A stretch of 64,000 nucleotides of DNA. Origin: Amylolactobacillus amylophilus DSM 20533 = JCM 1125. GTDB taxonomy: Bacteria; Bacillota; Bacilli; Lactobacillales; Lactobacillaceae. The stretch covers positions 1,364,001-1,428,000 of the forward strand of contig NZ_CP018888.1 of assembly GCF_001936335.1 (NCBI RefSeq), given 5' to 3'. The position numbers and the translations under genes are program-made. This document shows positions 11,245 to 55,395 of the stretch, in pieces (position 1 is the first letter of the stretch; each line of letters opens with the position of its first letter). The notes under the pieces were generated by a model, which worked only from the letters and a program-made list of their open reading frames with translations, was not told where the DNA came from and ran no database searches.

Positions 11245-11625
11245 ATGGTTCAATCAATAAACACCAAAGTAGATTTAGTTGAAAAGGCGACATCCCATAC
11301 GGCAATTGCTGAATATGGCAAGATTATGATTGGTGATAAGGGATTCGAGTTCTTCAACGATAAGAACGTCCAGAAATACATTCAGATTCCGTGGGATGAA
11401 GTTGATCTAGTCATCGCTTCGATTCTGTTCAAGGGTAAATACATTCCTAGATACGCATTGAAGACGAAGAGTAGTGGTACATACAATTTCTCTTCAAAGG
11501 ACCCAAAGAAAGTGCTGCGTGCAATTCGCGAGTACATTCCAGCAGACCGAATCGTTCGTTCACTCAGCTTCTTTCAGGTGCTGAAGCGCGGTTTGAAGAA
11601 TATTTTCATGGGAAAAAGAAAGTAG
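11245..11625 (+). CDS. manO: ManO, DUF956 family regulator-like protein
   Basis: 126 residues of the DUF956 family, which is regularly found as the last gene of mannose PTS operons in lactic acid bacteria. The protein is small, basic at its C-terminus (RGLKNIFMGKRK) and lacks obvious membrane segments or a helix-turn-helix; its molecular role is not established. It lies 89 bp after manZ behind a terminator-like hairpin, so its level is probably lower than that of the PTS components. ATG at 11245 follows AAAAGGATAG. Its last four codons are the first bases of a 112-bp tandem repeat array. Confidence 0.85.
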   Translation: MVQSINTKVDLVEKATSHTAIAEYGKIMIGDKGFEFFNDKNVQKYIQIPWDEVDLVIASILFKGKYIPRYALKTKSSGTYNFSSKDPKKVLRAIREYIPADRIVRSLSFFQVLKRGLKNIFMGKRK

Positions 11626-11974
11626 TGACAAAAGATGGTTAGCTTCTGAGCACTTACGATGACACTAAAGCGTGGAACGCTTGAAGTGGCAAGTAAGGCG
11701 GAGGAAGTTATCTTTTGAAACACAGTTAAGAAAGTAGTGACAAAAGATGGTTAGCTTCTGAGCACTTACGATGACACTAAAGCGTGGAACGCTTGAAGTG
11801 GCAAGTAAGGCGGAGGAAGTTATCTTTTGAAACACAGTTAAGAAAGTAGTGGCAAAAGATGGTTAGCTTCTGAGCACTTACGATGACACTAAAGCGTGGA
11901 ACGCTTGAAGTGGCAAGTAAGGCGGAGGAAGTTATCTTTTGAAACACAGTTAAGAAAGTAGTGGCAAAAGATGG
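11616..11974 (+). repeat. Tandem array of a 112-bp structured repeat (3 full copies plus a fragment)
   Basis: Copies begin at 11616, 11728, 11840 and 11952 (the last broken off after about 23 bases), each 112 bp and nearly identical (one A/G variant separates copies 1-2 from 3-4). The first copy begins inside the last codons of manO, and each copy repeats those bases. Within a unit, CAAAAGAT (11629-11636) can pair with ATCTTTTG (11710-11717), AGCTTCT with a block ending GGAAGTT, CTTAC with GTAAG, CACT with AGTG, and AAGCGT with ACGCTT around a GGA loop, forming one long branched hairpin of 89 bases. No protein is encoded. The array fills the gap between manO and pgi. Confidence 0.95.
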
Positions 11975-12024
11975 TCAGGATCCACACTCTTAGCCGTTGA
12001 TTAGTCACGTCCGTTTCTTGCATT

Positions 12025-19295: not shown

Positions 19296-20309
19296 ATGAT
19301 TGAATATTTTGCCACACAGAATCTAATTGAAAAAATGGTGACGGCGCGGATTGTTCCGGGTGTGAACTACGCATTCATTAAGGGCCAACAGGTGTTCACA
19401 TCAACCGTGGGTTTCTCGACCTGGGTACCGGAAAATGTCCAACTGAGTCCATTTGCCCAGTATGATTTAGCCAGCCTCACCAAGGTTCTCGGCACCACCA
19501 CGGTCTTTCTTCAACTCTACGAGGAAGGACAACTCAACTTTTCTGAGCCGTTACAGCAGTTTATTCCGACGTTTAAGGACCACCGGGTACGGTTATCCCA
19601 CCTGTTGACGCACACGTCTGGTATTCGTGGCTACATCGAACACCGAGATGAATTGAGCGCACGGGAATTAATTGAGGCCATTATCAACTTACCCGTGACA
19701 GACGAATTTGACGAGAAGGTGCGCTATTCAGACACAAATTTCATTCTGCTCGGGTTAGTACTCGAGGTAATCTTCGATAAGCCGGTCTGGCAGGTGATTA
19801 CGGAGCAGGTGATTAGACCGATGCACTTGCAGGCTACCACATTTTACCCAGATAAAAAAAATAGTGTACCAACGACGATGCGAGAGGATGGTACGCTGAT
19901 TCAGGGTGTGGTCCATGACCCGAAGGCACAGGTTTTGAAGGAGCATTGCGGCTCAGCGGGATTGTTTAGCGACCTGAACGACCTAGTGGTGATGGCACAG
20001 GGATACTTGGGCTTGAACCGGGATATTTTACCGCTGCACCAAGAGACCGTTGCTGAGTTGTTCAAGCCTAAAACGCGGCCAACGATGGATTTTCGCAGTT
20101 GGGGTTTCGACATGGTCTTTGATCCAATCGACCAACACGCGATTATCCTGCATACTGGCTATACCGGCACCTTGGTTGTCTTTGACAGGCTAATGCGGAC
20201 CGGGATGATCCTGTTGACGAATCGGGTTCATCCAAGCGGTAACAATCAAATATTCATCACGGCGCGCCAGAAGATCATTGCGAGCTTCTTGGATGAAAAT
20301 AAGCGTTAA
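19296..20309 (+). CDS. Serine hydrolase of the beta-lactamase/PBP4* class
   Basis: 337 residues, no signal peptide visible, so probably cytoplasmic or membrane-associated. The class C serine motif SLTK is at residues 60-63 (S60 nucleophile, K63), YSDTN at about residue 149 is the Y-x-N-like second motif, and LHTGYTG near residue 285 is the third (HTG replacing KTG). The family includes peptidases, esterases and transesterases; substrate not predictable. ATG at 19296 follows AGAGG at 19280-19284. A strong hairpin follows the stop. Confidence 0.85.
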   Translation: MIEYFATQNLIEKMVTARIVPGVNYAFIKGQQVFTSTVGFSTWVPENVQLSPFAQYDLASLTKVLGTTTVFLQLYEEGQLNFSEPLQQFIPTFKDHRVRLSHLLTHTSGIRGYIEHRDELSARELIEAIINLPVTDEFDEKVRYSDTNFILLGLVLEVIFDKPVWQVITEQVIRPMHLQATTFYPDKKNSVPTTMREDGTLIQGVVHDPKAQVLKEHCGSAGLFSDLNDLVVMAQGYLGLNRDILPLHQETVAELFKPKTRPTMDFRSWGFDMVFDPIDQHAIILHTGYTGTLVVFDRLMRTGMILLTNRVHPSGNNQIFITARQKIIASFLDENKR

Positions 20310-20345
20310 AAAATGCAGCTTTCCAATTTGGAAAACTGCATTTTT
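20308..20345 (+). terminator. Terminator of the serine hydrolase gene
   Basis: AAAAATGCAG pairs with CTGCATTTTT, and TTCCAA with TTGGAA inside it. It ends in five T and may also serve in the opposite direction. Confidence 0.85.
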
Positions 20346-20354
20346 ACTTATCTT

Positions 20355-20647
20355 CAGCTGCGTGCGCTAGTACTCAAAAGCTAACCGTGGGTGTACACGC
20401 TCTGCTTTGAAACGCGTTAGCACCCACAACTTTTTCCGTCTAGCTTCTCAGCTCTCACACCACTGCGTGGCGTTTCAGCTGCGTGCGCTAGTACTCAAAA
20501 GCTAACCGTGGGTGTACACGCTCTGCTTTGAAACGCGTTAGCACCCACAACTTTTTCCGTCTAGCTTCTCAGCTCTCACACCACTGCGTGGCGTTTCAGC
20601 TGCGTGCGCTAGTACTCAAAAGCTAACCGTGGGTGTACACGCTCTGC
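20355..20647 (-). repeat. Tandem array of a 121-bp structured repeat after murT (2 full copies plus a fragment)
   Basis: Read in the direction of murT (minus), the array begins directly at the murT stop. Copies start, on the plus strand, at 20355 (partial), 20476 and 20597, with a period of 121 bp. Each full unit is closed by CACCCAC pairing with GTGGGTG (20542-20548 with 20629-20635; 20421-20427 with 20508-20514). Inside, on the minus strand, lie the blocks GGTTAGCTTTTGAGTAC and GACGGAAAAAGTT, of which AGCTTTT and AAAAGTT can pair. The same blocks occur in the manO array at 11616-11974. No coding capacity is seen. Confidence 0.93.
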
Positions 20648-22006
20648 TTATTCCATTCCGGCTGCAATCACCTTTTCATCAGCTAACTTCTTGCGTAAGG
20701 CGAGCATCGCCGTATACGTCGATAGGATGTAAACTTTCTTCGTTGGGGCCTTTTTCACAGTCTCTAAGACACTGTTAAGCGAGTCTGTCACCTGCATCTG
20801 CGCTGGGTCAAAACCAGCGACTTCCAGGCGCAAGGCCATATCGTGGAATCGTTCGCCCCCGACGATCACCTGCTTAATCTTTGTTCGCTCTAACAACTCG
20901 AAGTTGCCATCCCAGATCCAACTGGTATCGATGCCATCCGCATGTTGAGCGTTTAATAGGGCGACAAGGCTGAAGTCGTCCTCTTCCTCGTTTATCAGGT
21001 CGACGATTTCGTTCAGCCCAACTGGATTCTTCACCAAAATGAGGTTGATGTTGTGGCCATTATAAGTAATCAATTCCTGGCGTCCAAACAGACGTTGGCT
21101 GTTGCTGAGTGCCTGCATGATTTTGGCAGCGGGTACGTCGAACTCTCGCGCCACACTGTAGGCTGCAAGTGCATTATGGATATTATACTTACCACCGATC
21201 GGCATCGTAATTTCCTGGTGCTCAATCGCGAAGTTAATGGTATTTGGCGTGAGCTTGCCGATGTTTGTAACCTGGTGAGTTAACGCCGGCCGTTTGAAAC
21301 CGCAGTTGACACAGAAGTAGTCCCCCAGGTTAGCGTAGCTGAGTGCGTGGTAGTGGAGGATATGGTTGCAGACGGGGCATAAGACACCATCCGTGTTGGT
21401 CGGGGCCTTGAAATCAGCTGCCTGGTCAGCATCCTTAGTCGAAACACCGTAGTAACAAATGCGGTTTGGTAGCTCGCGAGAACTGAAGATGCTGGCGTCA
21501 CCGTTTGCAACCACCAGCGCATCAGGCGCGAGCTTAATCCCAGACACAATCTTGTCGTAGGTCGTATAAATCTCCCCGTAGCGGTCCATCTGGTCGCGGA
21601 AGAGGTTGGTCAACACGAAAGCCTTTGGTTGAACGATTGCCGTGATTAATGGCACGTTCGCTTCGTCAACCTCGAGTACGGCGATTCTTCTCTTCGTCGT
21701 CTTGACTTTTTTGTGGCTCAAGAACGCCGTTGTGATTCCTTGTACCATGTTCGAGCCCGAGGGGTTCGTTAAGACGTCATCATACTCCGTCCTTAGTGCT
21801 TCAACCAACAGACTAGTCGTCATCGTCTTCCCGTTCGTGCCCGTGACGATAATCAGTTCATAATCACGCGCCAAGTCGGCCAGGACGTTCTCGTCTATCT
21901 TCGTGGCCAAGACGCCGGGGTACGATGTGCCACCATTCCTGAATTTGTGGAGGTACCAGAAGGAACCTTTGCCCACCACTGTAGCAATTTTAGCTTTTAT
22001 TGTCAT
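20648..22006 (-). CDS. murT: Lipid II isoglutaminyl synthase, MurT subunit
   Basis: 452 residues. Mur-ligase type ATP site TGTNGKTMTTSLLVEAL is at residues 56-72. A four-cysteine insertion (CPVC ... CVNC, about residues 205-230) and a C-terminal DUF1727 domain are features of MurT. With the amidotransferase GatD it amidates D-Glu of lipid II to D-isoglutamine. Here no gatD follows: the next sequence is a tandem repeat array and then a convergent gene. ATG at 22006 is preceded by AAGGATGAGAG. It is divergent from tdk. Confidence 0.9.
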   Translation of the reverse strand: MTIKAKIATVVGKGSFWYLHKFRNGGTSYPGVLATKIDENVLADLARDYELIIVTGTNGKTMTTSLLVEALRTEYDDVLTNPSGSNMVQGITTAFLSHKKVKTTKRRIAVLEVDEANVPLITAIVQPKAFVLTNLFRDQMDRYGEIYTTYDKIVSGIKLAPDALVVANGDASIFSSRELPNRICYYGVSTKDADQAADFKAPTNTDGVLCPVCNHILHYHALSYANLGDYFCVNCGFKRPALTHQVTNIGKLTPNTINFAIEHQEITMPIGGKYNIHNALAAYSVAREFDVPAAKIMQALSNSQRLFGRQELITYNGHNINLILVKNPVGLNEIVDLINEEEDDFSLVALLNAQHADGIDTSWIWDGNFELLERTKIKQVIVGGERFHDMALRLEVAGFDPAQMQVTDSLNSVLETVKKAPTKKVYILSTYTAMLALRKKLADEKVIAAGME

Positions 22007-39814: not shown

Positions 39815-40034
39815 AAAAAAGCAGCTTGCGCTGCTCCTTAGTTTACTATAGTAATCCGAATTGACGATGGCACCATTGACGTAGTTGAACCCGCAAGTTC
39901 TAAAAATGAGCCGTTTCCCTACAAATATGGATCCTAGACCAGCTAGTATTCCGATTTAATAGTTCTAACTAACTCTCACGTCGATATATTCGATCGGTCA
40001 ACTGTACTTCGGCTTCTCAATCAACTCAGACTAT
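39815..40034 (-). ncRNA. ssrS: 6S RNA (Lacto-usp type)
   Basis: A gene-free stretch with its own promoter (TATAAT complement at 40041-40046) and a terminator (GCAGC/GCTGC at 39821-39834 with A-run on the plus strand, i.e. U-tail on the minus strand) gives an RNA of about 215 bases. It lies between rarA and the hypothetical gene plus usp. In Bacillus the 6S-1 gene is also beside rarA, and the Lacto-usp motif, recognised as lactobacillal 6S, is defined at this position. The identity is from position and size; the fold was not computed. Confidence 0.65.
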
Positions 40035-47195: not shown

Positions 47196-47202
47196 TTCAC
47201 TA

Positions 47203-47433
47203 TAAGCTTTGAACAAGAGAAGTTCGGCACCAACAGAGAGAAACGTAGCTGAGAAGTTTCATCACCGAACGCAGTAGCTTGGGAGCTGGTTTACTGAGTT
47301 TAGTAAGTAAACCCGGGACACCGTTATCGATTTAAGTGAAGCCGCCTATTGAGATTAATTACGGCAATGGGTGAGCTTAATTTAGGTGGTACCGCGGTTA
47401 ATTCGTCCTAGACATTTGTCTAGGACTTTTTTT
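47203..47433 (+). promoter_or_regulatory. T-box riboswitch of valS
   Basis: Leader of about 230 bases. The T-box AGGTGGTACCGCG is at 47384-47396; its TGGT matches a tRNA end with discriminator A. The terminator is GTCCTAGAC/GTCTAGGAC (47405-47413 with 47418-47426) followed by seven T. In stem I, GTTCGG pairs with CCGAAC, and the 3' side then reads GCA GTA GCTT, so the specifier is most likely GTA (47274-47276), a valine codon. Uncharged tRNA-Val would favour antitermination. Confidence 0.93.
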
Positions 47434-55293: not shown

Positions 55294-55395
55294 CTCATCA
55301 CAAAGGGGAGCCGATATTGGCTGAGAGTGATTAAAATCAGACCCTTCAAACCTGTTCGATAATGCGAGTGTAGGGATTGTGGTGGAGTAATTTTG
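55294..55395 (+). promoter_or_regulatory. TPP riboswitch
   Basis: The thi-box core is clear: GGGGAGCC, GGCTGAGAG, GACCCTT and AACCTG in order and at normal distances. It controls the thiamine transporter gene after it; with TPP bound the downstream terminator should form. Confidence 0.93.

Follow-up and report, generated by a model that had tools for sequence, protein, structure and literature searches.

The window analysed here, a stretch of 64,000 nucleotides from the Amylolactobacillus amylophilus chromosome, contains a tandem repeat array between manO and pgi. Tandem Repeats Finder placed this array at 11616-11975 with a period of 112, 3.2 copies and 99% matches, in agreement with the first-pass annotation, which had described three 112-bp copies and a fragment. 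Set in the register of the wider family described below, the units start with AAGTAGTG, end with CACAGTT and are joined by the 4-nt linker AAGA. Units were scored with R1, a covariance model that we built from 12 copies in the same genome and that contains 27 base pairs.

11245..11625, + strand: manO (DUF956) coding sequence, from the ORF list and a blastn match to plasmid records annotated 'DUF956 family protein'
11623-11625, + strand: TAG stop codon of manO, inside the first repeat unit
11620..11727, + strand: unit 1, R1 102.7 bits; 89-nt hairpin at 11629-11717, fold z -5.1
11732..11839, + strand: unit 2, identical to unit 1; R1 102.7 bits; folds
11844..11951, + strand: unit 3, one base different from units 1 and 2; R1 100.4 bits; folds
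11956..11975, + strand: terminal fragment in register, 19-20 nt of the 5' end of a fourth unit, from the sequence and the array-end test (prefix 0-20 at +4 nt)

The first copy thus overlaps the end of manO, and the broken copy is the one most distant from the gene, both as originally described. Each unit had been said to fold into one long branched hairpin of 89 bases. The length holds, with the hairpin limits at C11629-G11717, but the branching does not: the fold is a single unbranched hairpin interrupted by internal loops and bulges. Its energy lies between -34.8 and -35.0 kcal/mol, whereas shuffled sequences average about -20 (z -5.1 and -5.0), and it passes the comparison with shuffled controls on which the first reading had been staked, none of 200 shuffles being as stable. 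The antisense strand folds worse (-25.7, z -4.2). The reading as neither protein coding nor CRISPR was upheld; a CRISPR array needs unique spacers between short repeats, whereas this locus has 112-bp units placed head to tail with 4-nt linkers.

The other tandem repeat of the window, at 20353-20649 on the minus strand with a period of 121, is a member of the same family.

20531..20645, - strand: second array, unit 1, R1/R2 97.1 and 72.7 bits; 2 nt past the stop of a Mur-ligase-like gene
20410..20524, - strand: second array, unit 2, R1/R2 matches
20353..20403, - strand: terminal 51-nt 5' fragment, from the sequence and the array-end test
20309..20345, - strand: terminator-like hairpin with a T run behind the second array, from the sequence

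Rfam matches in the window comprise three other RNAs.

39907-39995: Lacto-usp RNA
47200-47413: T-box leader
55294-55393: TPP riboswitch

Rfam RNAs of lactobacilli such as Lacto-usp are likewise structured, non-coding and present in the same genomes as the element, but none of these families matches it, even at E up to 5. A cmscan of Rfam 15, at the gathering threshold and then with E up to 1 or 5, returned no family that matches the element.

One structured family and its distribution

The family consists of elements of 108-125 nt with one conserved structure. From the base upwards this comprises an outer stem, a variable stem of 8-9 bp, a 4-nt GnTA bulge, a stem of 6 bp, an internal loop of GA opposite GnA, a 7-bp stem with a one-base bulge, and a variable apical hairpin. 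The consensus of the 5' arm reads AGAGTGTGA, the variable 8-bp stem, CG, the GtTA bulge, the 6-bp stem and TGAGCA-tTAac; after the variable apical hairpin it continues with gttAaGCGgA, the 6-bp stem, TG, the stem and gAACACGTTT.

The 12 distinct units of the A. amylophilus genome can be aligned over their full length, and their stems diverge in sequence yet all pair (for instance CAAAAGAT/ATCTTTTG, CACAAGCT/AGCTTGTG, GGTAAAC/GTTTACC and CACAGCAC/GTGCTGTG). Across these units 96.0% of cells in the 27 pairs are paired, both sides have changed in 19 of the 27, and the covariation score is 0.65 against 0.26 for shuffled and at most 0.15 for slid alignments. Among 137 units from other genomes 94.2% of cells are paired and 24 of 27 pairs covary, in an alignment that was fitted to the structure, so that the pair count leans towards it. 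The long variable stem closes at its inner end with a G·U pair in all 12 own units and in 126 of 136 others. Overall, G·U or U·G cells number 518 against 58 for A·C or C·A (106 against 51 once mostly-wobble pairs are removed), and therefore the sense strand is the strand selected to fold.

Strand-specific G·U pairing, covariation and position together argue for an element that acts as RNA, although a single-stranded DNA intermediate is possible too, and they support the first-pass annotation in its reading of an RNA-structured element repeated in tandem in the manO 3' untranslated region. In a dispersed repeat such covariation could come from selection for spreading rather than from a host function. 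Compensatory changes in situ at orthologous copies were few, in a comparison of only a handful of copies with too few close pairs.

Homologous units, whose absence from every other genome was to count against the first reading, are present in many genomes. By blastn, related copies were found at 647, 865 and 930 kb of the 1.61-Mb A. amylophilus genome, and more divergent ones could be reached from these; R1 has 38 matches in this genome. Plain blastn with the manO unit against 100 relatives gave almost nothing beyond the own genome, and the spread becomes visible with a covariance model only. R1 matches occur in 168 of 397 Lactobacillaceae genomes and in 20 of 40 genera, with sparser matches in two further families in a sample of Lactobacillales; R2 additionally finds at least 8 copies in G828, a genome from another order of Bacilli, and a single copy in G070. 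Among the carriers are Levilactobacillus, Lactiplantibacillus, Lapidilactobacillus, Latilactobacillus, Paucilactobacillus, Companilactobacillus, Lacticaseibacillus and Furfurilactobacillus. Copy number ranges from 0 to at least 144, the latter in genome G004; the large searches scored between 9 and 150 candidates per genome, and copy counts are accordingly lower bounds. The element is thus a dispersed repeat, both genome-wide and family-wide, and not a feature of manO.

At 896068-896093 of the own genome (L016) a 5' half-element stands alone, without an adjoining full unit; it covers about 48 nt as far as GAGTACTAGCGA. On plasmids we found one match, in three Pediococcus damnosus plasmids (NZ_CP012271, NZ_CP012277 and NZ_CP012289) from beer or brewery; this copy is unannotated and has 76% identity to a Lactiplantibacillus element. 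The other blastn queries against plasmids and phages returned nothing, blastn being a poor detector of this family. Two IMG/VR contigs (L215 and L216) match the core pattern of the element exactly and may be mis-binned chromosome.

Open-literature searches, with subscription papers and repeat databases outside their scope, returned no description of this repeat family. About two in five of the sampled Lactobacillaceae genomes carry a family absent from Rfam and from the literature searched.

Position and orientation at gene ends

We examined 149 arrays, nearly all from outside the own genome, with gene boundaries taken from a simple ORF finder. In 112 of 140 cases the upstream gene runs in the direction of the element, and in 88 of 133 the downstream gene is convergent; three of the 149 arrays lie inside an ORF. 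Of 101 testable cases, 67 have the element starting between -9 and +15 nt from the upstream stop codon on the same strand; uniform placement in the same gaps would give 17.3 (maximum 31 in 20000 simulations). The mirror arrangement, in which a reversed element ends at a convergent stop, was seen once where 13.1 were expected. The loci in these statistics were mostly picked by match to the model or core, which may favour canonical copies but gives no reason to favour stops or an orientation.

The own genome has the same arrangement, with 15 of 18 arrays placed -6 to +28 nt from the stop codon of a long ORF that precedes them in the same direction; the remaining three are not behind a stop codon, which counts against reading the element as a 3'-UTR element of stop codons. 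Translations of the genes ahead of these arrays give RsmG, an RpiB/LacB-like isomerase, ribosomal protein S1, an ABC-F protein, an Asp23-like protein, a multicopper oxidase, a Mur ligase and others, which by this measure are functionally unrelated. In one operon the neighbouring genes for PTS EIIB and EIIC are each followed by a separate element (L252, 1045-1162 and 2610-2846, minus strand).

Strong intrinsic terminators are found within 160 nt downstream of 54 of 178 elements, against 5 of 182 and 8 of 182 controls, and the terminator stem starts mostly 19-29 nt (about 24 nt) past the element. These hairpins at gene ends, in sense orientation and often between convergent genes, could be taken for a class of transcription terminators in their own right. 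The element hairpin, however, has no T run of its own, the recognised terminator is a separate hairpin some 24 nt further on, and elements also lie within an operon, after PTS EIIB and ahead of EIIC; we regard this explanation as highly improbable. Behind several elements (L068-L070 and L074), 20-70 nt downstream, the terminator stems are GAGAnTGnGACATAA-like and resemble the 5' end of the element, and some terminators look as if they were internally deleted element copies.

The many copies that precede a terminator would also suit stable small RNAs processed from mRNA 3' ends and acting in trans, either as 3'-UTR-derived sRNAs or as protein sponges, as would the numerous copies per genome and the unpaired motifs conserved inside a variable stem. 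Stems that vary freely leave no fixed seed for base pairing with a target, however, and we consider such a role very unlikely.

Array growth and spread

Within arrays, the sequence just ahead of a later unit repeats that ahead of the first (64 matching bases against 20.5 by chance, a value reached in none of 2000 shuffles). Linkers are thus copies of the array's own upstream flank, and therefore arrays grow by duplication in place. The tandem, in-register, imperfect palindromes with bulges recall the attC recombination sites of integrons, yet there are no cassette genes between units, and the linkers, mostly of 2-10 nt, copy the local flank as in-place duplication predicts; an attC-like site is scarcely credible here. 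A 5' fragment closes the array in 10 of 18 cases in the own genome, in 0 of 16 in the sister species, and elsewhere in 10 of 117 and 6 of 29; since it is absent from the sister and infrequent elsewhere, it is not a family trait.

Between genomes the element comes and goes. Within the genus of G004, gene ends that are orthologous have it in some species and lack it in others, and where present its sequence and offset differ; other orthologous gene ends are likewise patchy, with presence and absence seen without a clean empty-site junction. One allele of the 647-kb locus, on contig G121:C18 (L264), is 98% identical and lacks the first of the two units, a gain or loss of 122 bp. That contig is 8.3 kb long, is assigned to another genus and, in the part compared, matches the own genome at 98% identity; it is perhaps contamination or a recent transfer. 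At another pair of loci, L165 and L210 from two species, hardly any difference is apparent between the aligned elements or the terminators downstream of them, although the upstream gene is 89% identical, for which concerted evolution, recent replacement or strong constraint are possible explanations.

We looked for the marks of known mobilisers. Target-site duplications were absent: the 128 single copies scored 58, where the null averaged 65. On this count we reject a MITE of the kind that has terminal inverted repeats and duplicates its target site. The Y1 transposase domain PF01797 is absent from the own genome (G000) and from its sister G001 (an assembly 65% complete), both of which carry many elements. 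It is present in several element-free genomes, and Y1_Tnp and carrier status do not track one another among the listed genomes, which sets aside a RAYT partner as the mobiliser. No reverse transcriptase (RVT_1) was found in the four carriers G000, G004, G121 and G554, and a retroelement mobilised by such an enzyme is likewise rejected.

These results bear on the reading of the element as selfish DNA: a non-autonomous mobile hairpin that a transposase or recombinase would recognise in its folded single-stranded DNA form, that lands by preference at stops or beside terminators, and that has no role for the host. Copy numbers from 0 to at least 144, patchy orthologous sites and the 122-bp unit gained or lost between 98%-identical alleles of the 647-kb locus would all be natural for such an element, and its conserved bulges resemble the bulge of the E. 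coli REP that its transposase needs (PMC8266576). A near-palindrome would be expected in either orientation, however, and reversed copies at stops are almost absent; the 128 single copies lack target-site duplications; and the two enzymes sought are missing, Y1 transposase from the own genome and RVT_1 from the four carriers, although the enzyme could be of another type or have been lost. We take this explanation seriously but consider it less likely than not.

Interpretation and comparison with known repeats

The element is one structured family that lies in sense orientation at the stops of unrelated genes, often ahead of a terminator, and that duplicates in place. The array behind manO is probably three tandem copies of a dispersed non-coding 3'-end RNA element that has a REP-like effect in cis and is mobilised in trans. 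On this account the element would be transcribed within the mRNA 3' UTR and fold within the ribosome footprint at the stop codon. By analogy with the REP sequences of E. coli, from which we infer a regulatory effect in the 3' UTR, it would affect the upstream mRNA in cis; the most likely mechanism is that it blocks 3'-to-5' exonucleases and delays termination or recycling. For its spread as a non-autonomous repeat it would depend on an enzyme provided in trans. A specific binding partner is suggested by the conserved internal loops, which may be the recognition site of either a host protein or the element's mobiliser. Many of these 3' ends are already protected by a terminator, which counts against a role as stabiliser.

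A more elaborate form of this account would make the element a portable 3'-UTR module that depends on the stop codon for its insertion or its survival, has a dedicated RNA-binding partner that senses translation termination, and is mobilised by an undescribed enzyme. We think this unlikely; if true, the number of genes concerned in a lactobacillus genome could reach a hundred or more. The strict phasing to stop codons and the orientation make the choice between a selfish and a regulatory element directly testable.

The BOX and RUP repeats of Streptococcus pneumoniae are also dispersed, intergenic and structured, and BOX has tandem inner modules in a boxA-boxB-boxC architecture, but by a comparison of architecture neither is known to have a single long bulged hairpin at stops. 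To our knowledge, the nearest described repeat in Lactobacillales is EFAR of Enterococcus faecalis, presumably the same as Efa-1. EFARs, which are modular, share with our element the character of small structured repeats dispersed in Lactobacillales, but differ, in a comparison of general features, in having about 170 bp and two stem-loops where the element has one hairpin. EFAR is listed among the MITEs of enterococci (PMC3733652), and Efa-1 is 163 bp long with 65 copies in E. faecalis (PMC2267715). The element may be related to EFAR.

The likeness in position is to the REP and BIME sequences. REP sequences are also found between the genes of an operon. In enterobacteria and pseudomonads REP and BIME are dispersed extragenic palindromes with conserved bulges, occurring in groups and in many cases within 15 nt of a stop codon (PMC12306157). 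As cited in that same paper, E. coli REP stabilises mRNAs (Newbury 1987), and where it lies within 15 nt of the stop codon ribosomes stall and translation drops (Liang 2015). A site close behind stops, frequent among REPs though not strictly defining, is shared by our element (67 of 101 cases, and 15 of 18 in the own genome). REPs are 20-50 nt long and have a conserved GTAG tag and a TnpA-REP (RAYT) partner (PMC8266576, PMC3733652), and their bulge in E. coli is required for the transposase (PMC8266576). The element lacks all three defining features: its units are 108-125 nt long with an 89-nt hairpin at manO, its consensus 5' end is AGAGTGTG or AAGTTGTG with GTAG in some copies only (manO among them), and the own genome has no Y1 (RAYT-type) transposase. 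It is therefore not classed as a REP sequence. By analogy, we infer that it works like REP at stop codons without being REP. If it acts on mRNA 3' ends, many bacteria of food and the gut would carry a common post-transcriptional module on a considerable proportion of their genes, a parallel to REP in E. coli reached through a different element and a different spreading enzyme.
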